From NCBI RefSeq assembly GCF_000737325.1, contig NZ_CP011125.1, forward strand, positions 930,001 through 994,000: a DNA stretch of 64,000 bases, given 5' to 3'. The translations under genes were made by a program, and so were the position numbers. The notes beneath the pieces were generated by a model that worked only from the letters and a program-made list of their open reading frames with translations, was not told where the DNA came from and did not search any database. This document shows, piece after piece, positions 880 through 4,169 of this stretch; position 1 is the stretch's first letter; each line of letters starts with the position of its first letter. Source of the stretch: Sandaracinus amylolyticus (GTDB taxonomy: Bacteria > Myxococcota_A > Polyangia > Polyangiales > Sandaracinaceae).

Positions 880-2449
<1,570 letters not shown>

Positions 2450-2546
2450 CGGGAGGGGTCTTGGAAGACCCCTCCCCCCGTCCGGCAGAGCCGGCCGGGG
2501 CCCCCCACCCCAAACACCGCGCGCGGGGCCCCAGCCCCGCTTGCTC
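2450..2546. repeat. 97-bp hairpin-rich intergenic repeat, copy 1 (atpD-atpC spacer)
   Basis: The copy starts directly after the atpD stop codon. It contains three inverted repeats in order: 12-base arms GGGAGGGGTCTT / AAGACCCCTCCC around GG; CCGGC-AGA-GCCGG; and GCGGGGC-CCCA-GCCCCGC. A second copy of the same length lies downstream of atpC at 3003-3099. All three stems are conserved between copies, while the linkers differ. It ends 17 bases before the atpC start, so it is a leader for atpC as well as a trailer for atpD. Confidence 0.85.
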
Positions 2547-2563
2547 TCGCAAGGTGATGTTCG

Positions 2564-2998
2564 ATGGCTGCGAACCCTGAGCTTCTCACTCTCGAGGTGG
2601 CCACGCCGCTCGGCCTCGTGCTCCGCACCGAGGCGGAGAGCGTGGCGGCGCCCAGCGTGCACGGCGAGTTCGGCGTGTTCGCGGGCCACCTCCCGCTGCT
2701 CGCCGCGCTCAAGCCGGGCGTCGTGAAGTATCGCGTCGCCGGCAAGGATCACGTCGCGGCGGTGGGCGCGGGCTTCGTCGAGGCCGGCCCCGACAAGGTG
2801 CTCCTCCTGTGCGACCTGTTCGCGCAGCCGAAGGAGATCGACACCGCGAAGGTGCAGAGCGAGCTCGAGGCGGCAGAGAAGGAGCTCGCGGGCTACGGCG
2901 AGCTCTACGAAGGTCCGCGCTACGAGGAGCTGCAGCGCCAGATCGACTGGTGCCTCGCGCGCCTCCAGGCGAAGGCCGACAACGGCTCGCACCCGTGA
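2564..2998 (+). CDS. atpC: F1F0 ATP synthase subunit epsilon
   Basis: This 144-residue protein is the epsilon subunit of the F1 central stalk, which couples rotation and inhibits ATP hydrolysis. The N-terminal beta-sandwich is recognisable (LTLEVATPLG, then GEFGVFAGHLPLLAALKPG). The C-terminal helical hairpin contains TAKVQSELEAAEKELAG. The C-terminal helix continues to about residue 138, somewhat longer than the minimal form. An AAGGTGAT ribosome site precedes the ATG. It is the second gene of an atpDC unit, but the spacer from atpD holds a repeat element that could alter mRNA folding or processing. Confidence 0.95.
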   Translation: MAANPELLTLEVATPLGLVLRTEAESVAAPSVHGEFGVFAGHLPLLAALKPGVVKYRVAGKDHVAAVGAGFVEAGPDKVLLLCDLFAQPKEIDTAKVQSELEAAEKELAGYGELYEGPRYEELQRQIDWCLARLQAKADNGSHP

Positions 2999-3002
2999 TT
3001 CG

Positions 3003-3099
3003 CGGGAGGGGTCTTGGAAGACCCCTCCCCCCGACCGGCAAAGCCGGATCGGTCCCCCCTCCCCGAACGCTGCGCGCGGGGCCCCAGCCCCGCTTGCTC
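3003..3099. repeat. 97-bp hairpin-rich intergenic repeat, copy 2 (downstream of atpC)
   Basis: This copy begins 5 bases after the atpC stop and matches copy 1 (2450-2546) over the full length with roughly ten substitutions, all in the linkers or loops. The three stem-loops are intact: GGGAGGGGTCTT / AAGACCCCTCCC, CCGGC-AAA-GCCGG and GCGGGGC-CCCA-GCCCCGC. The position fits a transcription terminator or mRNA 3'-end element. The identical copy inside the operon makes a simple strong terminator less likely. Confidence 0.85.
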
Positions 3100-3239
3100 G
3101 TGCGCGGCGCTGGTGGAGCGCGGCGAAGAGAATCCGAAACGAGCCCCGTCGCGCAACAGCGTGGCGGGGCTCGTGACGTTCCGTCGCGTGTCCGCGATCG
3201 CGGCGTCCTCGAGGCACTCGCCTTGCGAGCTGCCCGCGC

Positions 3240-4169
3240 ATGCGAGGCCTCTCGCGTGCGCTCCTCGTCGTCGCGACGCTGCTCACGAGCGCGCCCGCCG
3301 CGGCGCAGGATCTCGGTCATCGATTGATCGGGACGCAGGGCCTCCACGCGGGACGCCTTCGCGAGCCAGGGCTCTACGTCGCAGACCAGCTCGGCTACTA
3401 CCACGCGGACACGCTGCGCGATCGCGAGGGCGCGGTCGTGCCGATCGAAGATCTGCGCGTGGACGCGCTCGCGAACGCGCTCGGCCTCTCGCTCGTCGTC
3501 GAGCTCCCCGACGAGCTGACGCACGTCGCGATCACGGCGGCGGTCCCGCTCGCTCGCGCGTCGCTCTCGGCGGACGTGCCCGAGGCGAGCCTCGACAACG
3601 CGGGCCTCGGTGACGTGTACGTGCAGCCGCTCTCGCTCGGATGGCGACTGCCGCACGTCGACGTCGTCACCGGGTATGCGCTGTACCTGCCGACCGGGCT
3701 CTTCCGCCTCGGCGAGGGCGGCATCAGCAGCGGGCACATCACGCACGAGCTCTCGCTCGGCACGACGATCTTCGCGGACGACGAGCGTCGCTACTTCGCG
3801 AGCGCGATGGCGAGCTACGACCTCCACCAGACGAAGAACGCCATCGACATCCGTCGCGGTGACACGCTCACGATCCAGGGCGGCATCGGCGCGACGCTCT
3901 TCGAGCTGGTCGACGTCGGCGTCGTCGGTGCCGCGCTCTGGCAGACGCGCGACGACGAGGGCGCCGACGTGCCGCTCGTGCTGCAGGGCGCGCGTGATCG
4001 CGTGCTCGCGCTCGGCGGAGAGATCAGCGTCGCGCTGCCGTCGATCCCAGGGCGCATCGGCGCGCGTTACGTCCACGAGCTCGACGTGAGGTCGCGCACC
4101 GAGGGTCAGGTGCTCGCGTTCCAGCTCGCGCTCGTCGCGTGGCGTCCAGAGCCGCGATCATCGCGGTGA
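3240..4169 (+). CDS. Outer-membrane channel-like protein (Phenol_MetA_deg/SphA-like)
   Basis: This 309-residue protein has a clear signal peptide (MRGLSRALLVVATLL, cleavage near APAAAQ). The rest alternates short hydrophobic and polar stretches, as in a small outer-membrane beta-barrel. Segments such as LYLPTGLFRLGEGG, AMASYDLHQTK and the closing ALVAWRPE resemble the putative MetA-pathway/transporter family PF13557. The likely location is the outer membrane. Substrate cannot be judged. It stands alone about 240 bp after atpC, beyond the second repeat copy. The family assignment is from pattern memory and is moderate. Confidence 0.55.
   Translation: MRGLSRALLVVATLLTSAPAAAQDLGHRLIGTQGLHAGRLREPGLYVADQLGYYHADTLRDREGAVVPIEDLRVDALANALGLSLVVELPDELTHVAITAAVPLARASLSADVPEASLDNAGLGDVYVQPLSLGWRLPHVDVVTGYALYLPTGLFRLGEGGISSGHITHELSLGTTIFADDERRYFASAMASYDLHQTKNAIDIRRGDTLTIQGGIGATLFELVDVGVVGAALWQTRDDEGADVPLVLQGARDRVLALGGEISVALPSIPGRIGARYVHELDVRSRTEGQVLAFQLALVAWRPEPRSSR

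Follow-up and report, generated by a model that had tools for sequence, protein, structure and literature searches.

What are two copies of the same hairpin-rich sequence doing on either side of a gene of the ATP synthase operon? The window, i.e. the whole 64-kb stretch of DNA analysed here, covers positions 930001-994000 of the single 10,327,335-bp chromosome of Sandaracinus amylolyticus (genome G000). Within it atpC (TIGR01216), downstream of atpD (TIGR01039), is bracketed by two 97-bp repeat copies, both on the + strand. The initial annotation had described this pair, and we located both copies exactly (Table 1).

The cores are embedded in a longer direct-repeat block (2441-2574 versus 2994-3127) with 81% identity. 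A search of the 64-kb window for the seed GGGAGGGGTCTTGG with up to two mismatches returned only both copies and their palindromic partners, with 0.24 matches expected by chance. Three hairpins are predicted in each of the two copies flanking atpC, with z-scores of −3.6 and −3.9 against dinucleotide shuffles. Past atpC and copy 2, a 16-bp inverted repeat lies at 3139-3174; the sister species has a similar sequence, and the inverted repeat is probably the operon's native 3′ hairpin.

In our judgement the repeat is probably a mobile element of the MITE/REP type, short (∼97-bp core), structured and non-autonomous, which lands in sense orientation just behind gene 3′ ends. The family is dispersed, its copies are placed at gene ends with a three-hairpin architecture, and insertion at pre-existing gene ends is lineage-specific. 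According to this proposal the element would spread within Sandaracinus and, in patches, across the order, in sense orientation and mostly 0-6 nt past a stop codon.

Table 1. Features of the atpD-atpC region (window coordinates) and loci from the genome-wide comparison
Feature	Position or loci	Strand	Remark
atpD stop codon	2447..2449	+	TAA; TGA in the sister species
Copy 1 core	2450..2546	+	Directly 3′ of the atpD stop; sister-species site empty
Copy 1 hairpin 1 (hp1)	2451..2476	+	11-bp stem, GGGAGGGGTCT-TGGA-AGACCCCTCCC
Copy 1 hairpin 2 (hp2)	about 2477..2499	+	CCGGC/GCCGG core, outer C/G stem
Copy 1 linker	2500..2522	+	C-rich, largely unpaired; from folding and alignment
Copy 1 hairpin 3 (hp3)	2523..2540	+	GCGGGGC-CCCA-GCCCCGC; across families, highest sequence conservation of any part
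atpC (F1 epsilon)	2564..2998	+	
atpC stop codon	2996..2998	+	TGA
Copy 2 core	3003..3099	+	4 nt 3′ of the atpC stop; sister-species site empty
Copy 2 hairpin 1	3004..3029	+	
Copy 2 hairpin 2	3031..3052	+	From folding
Copy 2 hairpin 3	3076..3093	+	
G000 copies also present in G008	L004, L005, L011, L014, L015, L026, L030		
G000 copy with remnant in G008	L019		
G000 copy ambiguous in G008	L010		
Group II introns L184-L191 (G000:C1)	6480714, 1463274, 9737454, 10316101, 2237593, 9086747, 8587925, 172012		

Size, distribution and structure of the family

The initial annotation had guessed at a genome-wide repeat family and suggested a genome search for GGGAGGGGTCTTGG. Made with copy 1 in BLAST and with a covariance model, this search was positive. 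BLAST against the G000 genome yielded 47 pieces, ∼30 of them close to full length. The covariance model, built on 61 repeat copies, gave ∼41 matches in G000 and ∼70 in the sister species, the congener G008. Among the other members of the taxonomic family, genome-wide copy numbers (approximate, as are all those given here, because the searches capped the number of candidates scored) were ∼56 in G001, ∼34 in G003, ∼27 in G007, ∼9 in G006, ∼7 in G002 and ∼4 in G005, with zero model matches in the further congener G009 and in G004. At stricter settings 16 of the 116 genomes of the order were positive, patchily distributed over five families. An exact 24-mer from hp3 matched only metagenome-assembled genomes labelled Sandaracinaceae, Polyangiaceae, Myxococcales or Deltaproteobacteria. 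Rfam, run on positions 2300-3300 with permissive filters, returned chance-level matches only and no family at gathering score or with a convincing E-value. A search of the open PMC literature found no account of this family, though descriptions elsewhere may exist.

Tandem repeat arrays with units of ∼105 bp occur at L091/G000:C1:7568934-7569180 and at L057; the place orthologous to the array at G000:C1:7568934 is occupied in G008 too. In genome G042 the copies (L232-L234) are bounded by inverted GTAG-headed hairpins that are REP-like, and in two cases the TAG of the GTAG head apparently doubles as the stop codon.

The three stems are real and are kept by base pairing, as judged from covariation in the alignments; the earlier idea that the stems are conserved through their pairing was thus borne out, both within the genus and across genera. 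Within the genus 96% of the cells pair, and nine two-sided (compensatory) changes were counted against one in shuffles, among them GGGAGGGGTCTT/AAGACCCCTCCC, GGAAGGGGTCAT/ATGACCCCTTCC and GGGCGGGG/CCCCGCCC. Across genera two-sided changes occur in 27 of the 28 pairs; they fill 188 cells versus 50 in shuffles, and at most 34 once the alignment is slid by 1-3 columns, though this alignment was fitted to the covariance model, so that the covariation counts lean toward structure.

The order of hp1, hp2, C-rich linker and hp3 is constant though the stem sequences differ, e.g. GGAGGGGCGTTCCGGCGCCCCTCC in G083 and GGGGGGCATTTTGCAAAATGCCCCC in G024. Sandaracinus and G024, a genome of another family, have almost the same hairpin 3 and flank (GCTGCGCGCGGGGCCCCAGC(A)CCCGCTTGCTC). 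On the left, Sandaracinus copies begin as (stop)-GYTTG-CGGGAGG; on the right their end is ill-defined, with a variable tail of 15-45 nt past the core.

Insertion behind gene ends

For 30 copies in G000 we concatenated the flanks and located the joined sequence in the sister species G008. The element was missing from 21 of the 30 orthologous sites, seven copies were shared, and one remnant and one ambiguous case made up the rest (Table 1). Where the G008 site is empty, it already contains the stop codon, with other bases after it, which means that the element arrived after the stop. The atpD-atpC gap of G008 is just 6 bp (TGA-TTGGCG-ATG), and its atpC has neither an upstream nor a downstream copy. 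In a comparison of ten genomes of the family this gap is short (1-22 bp) in all the others except G003, where a sequence-diverged variant of the repeat (L076, C579) lies directly 3′ of atpD; in G002, the congener of G003, the gap is 6 bp. Lineage-specific insertion is the simplest reading of these site comparisons, since the alternative needs precise loss in many lineages. One copy in G008, L065 (G008:C1:5438168-5438280), has on its two sides a near-perfect direct duplication of 48 bp of the surrounding sequence, much longer than any other flanking repeat.

In G000 and G008 together, the core starts within 15 nt past a same-strand stop codon in 53 of the 70 copies (76%); the stop-to-core spacing has its mode at 4-5 nt, and a further cluster of copies lies at 9-11 nt. 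With position and orientation drawn at random in non-coding DNA, 5.4% would fall within 15 nt of a stop (binomial p about 1e-52). About one-quarter of the copies in these two genomes are not at a same-strand stop; even some truncated or variant copies begin directly 3′ of stops (L169, L173). The stop codons used (44 TGA, 6 TAG and 3 TAA) match background usage (400, 67 and 9, respectively), indicating that it is the position of the stop that counts and not a TGA motif. In G035 and G044, genomes of other families, copies start at the 3′ ends of genes for tRNA-Ala, tmRNA and tRNA-Gly. A CTGA target motif is therefore insufficient to describe the target, as TAG and TAA are used at background proportion and copies are also found behind tRNA or tmRNA genes.

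Such a placement could also be read in another way, namely that the repeats are functional transcription terminators or stabilisers of 3′ ends, selectively retained at gene ends, with mobility secondary. The tight spacing of three-quarters of the copies behind stops, the extension of gene-end placement to tRNA and tmRNA genes and the long-term conservation of the structure with compensatory changes all favour selection of this kind. Against it stand the patchy distribution, with zero copies in the congener G009, and the copies that sit inside operons, with the next start 10-15 nt past the core (L001, L013, L015, L021), as strong termination within tight operons would be costly. An intrinsic terminator scan of positions 2350-3300 gave no match and no T-run, and an intrinsic terminator was rejected for lack of a T-run. 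We regard terminators or stabilisers as an unlikely primary identity of the family, and continue with the mobile element.

Mobilisation

The hallmarks of a MITE are clear in a related genus only, in genomes G024 and G019 (family f11). There the element is a MITE with a unit of ∼157 bp and 16-bp GTAA..TTAC inverted repeats; the ends of the unit read GTAA[G/C]CGTTCAGGGGG and CCCCCTGAACGCTTAC, and the 8-bp target duplications are exact in four cases and 7/8 in two. Genome G001 contains a 2,062-bp insertion sequence that encodes an IS66 transposase (PF03050); its ends read GTAACTGTTCAG, and its 8-bp duplication, GTCTGGGG, is exact. A fragment of an IS66 transposase in G019 stops ∼40 nt short of a matching end, ATAACTGTTCAGGGGG. 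These ends and duplications support an IS66-type origin of the element in the G024/G019 lineage; for the Sandaracinus copies we infer the same origin by extension. The family would then have been founded by an IS66-like (DDE) transposase acting in trans, and repeat units of ∼100-160 bp leave no room for a transposase gene within.

In the Sandaracinus copies of G000 and G008 no 8-bp duplication with its end at the stop could be detected (p = 0.75), and exact 8-bp repeats at other offsets were not above chance either. Permutation tests of left-right similarity for a target duplication in Sandaracinus, run over several windows, gave signals that were weak and window-dependent or absent. No match to the IS66 transposase (PF03050) exists in G000, which rules this enzyme out as the present mobiliser there, and the Y1 transposase (PF01797) is absent from G000, G008 and G009. 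The G000 insertions are younger than the split from G008, yet the genome has neither transposase, a point against the reading that we favour.

Two further kinds of mobility gene in G000, IS110 (10 copies) and the reverse transcriptases of group II introns, are unlinked to the repeat save for one weak model match in L190. The IS110-type transposase genes (PF02371) occur at 10 places of G000:C1 in two groups, one of which has five equal-scoring copies. The eight near-identical group II introns of G000:C1 (RF02003 + RF00029; L184-L191) each abut with their 3′ end the region of a start codon (GGATCTACCA-ATG), in eight different genes, and look like a recently active family that inserts at start codons.

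A REP/RAYT system, in which hairpin repeats are mobilised by a Y1 (HUH) transposase, seems to us improbable for this family. Dispersed palindromic repeats near stops do recall E. coli, where many REPs sit 15 nt or less from a stop codon and reportedly can stall ribosomes (work summarised in PMC12306157). Proteins with a Y1_Tnp domain are encoded in G001, G002 and G003, with one G001 copy ∼0.7 kb from such a gene, and the copies of G042 have GTAG-like hairpin ends. A RAYT/Y1 mobiliser was sought in the genome itself and in those of the family: G000, G008 and G009 are without Y1_Tnp, neither G000 nor G008 has a repeat-flanked RAYT gene, and the Sandaracinus copies are without a GTAG or GTGG head. 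The 8-bp target duplications at G024 copies point away from Y1 as well; we know of no Y1 enzymes that make them.

Very improbable indeed is a cis-regulatory RNA element of the ATP synthase operon, tuning epsilon relative to beta as the initial annotation had suggested: the atpD-atpC gap is filled with strong hairpins and a related element sits independently in the same gap of G003, but the site is empty in the sister species and in all family members other than G003, ∼25-30 unrelated genes of G000 have the same element directly 3′ of them, and copy 2, lying 3′ of atpC, cannot set the atpD:atpC ratio likewise. With this, a special role in tuning epsilon is left unsupported; a side effect of the copy on atpC translation is possible.

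Possible effects and comparison with known systems

For the mobile element that we favour, landing behind a gene end together with a strong 3′ hairpin would make insertions tolerable, as neither the coding sequence nor its stop is disrupted. More tentatively, once the element has landed, hp1 might serve as a ribosome-termination or 3′-end structure that lowers re-initiation on the next gene. Between atpD and atpC the gap is 114 nt in G000 versus 6 nt in the sister species, with hp1 immediately 3′ of the atpD stop, and from this change a loss of atpD-atpC coupling is predicted. That the insertion of copy 1 probably uncoupled the translation of atpC from that of atpD is thus a reasonable prediction rather than a result. 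A broader possibility, which we put forward as speculation, is that the family homes to gene 3′ ends (any stop, tRNA and tmRNA ends), installs there a transcript-end or ribosome-termination structure and repeatedly rewires operon coupling, as for atpC and atpD.

Small bacterial repeats are commonly viewed as clutter between genes. In three-quarters of the copies of this one, the position of the insertion point relative to the coding sequence varies by no more than a few nucleotides, whichever stop is used, and the three-hairpin architecture endures while the stem sequences turn over between genera. What appears to be new is a structurally conserved mobile family, found patchily in the order, with a strong preference for gene 3′ ends that is independent of stop type. 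Comparison of filled and empty sites in the sister species makes two questions testable: how the element locates the ends of genes, and whether a hairpin past the stop uncouples neighbouring genes. The atpD-atpC gap is a natural experiment of this kind, as one species has the insertion there and the other just 6 bp.

Among known systems, the ribosome termination structure (RTS) shares with our repeat a stable hairpin immediately 3′ of the stop codon, and in a synthetic E. coli operon it lowered re-initiation (PMC7518266). The RTS is, however, a functional class across phyla and not a homologous mobile family, and the function of our repeat is one that we only infer. MIRUs (mycobacterial interspersed repetitive units) are likewise small mobile repeats at gene boundaries whose neighbouring genes survive; their insertion sites are described as start codons, and they are said to contain an ORF that is coupled to the gene that follows (PMC12548453), whereas the present repeat sits at stops, has no conserved ORF and forms a chain of stable hairpins. 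The REP, BIME and REPIN sequences that go with RAYT (PMC2817692, PMC3116915) are also short, dispersed, palindromic and extragenic; according to PMC2817692, REPs flank the RAYT genes. Our repeat differs from them in its three tandem hairpins within ∼97 nt, in having no GTAG head and no Y1 transposase in G000, and in its one predominant orientation with 76% of copies at stops.

The likeness to IS66-type MITEs is found in the 16-bp GTAA..TTAC repeats, the ∼157-bp unit and the 8-bp duplications of G024 and G019, whose ends resemble those of the IS66-type insertion sequence of G001; the G000 and G008 copies differ in their diverged ends and in showing no detectable 8-bp duplication, G000 also being without an IS66 transposase. 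To our knowledge, three conserved hairpins combined with a gene-end bias are unusual among MITEs. As expected of a MITE, the repeat has no internal transposase gene and occupies lineage-specific insertion sites, 21 of 30 being empty in G008.
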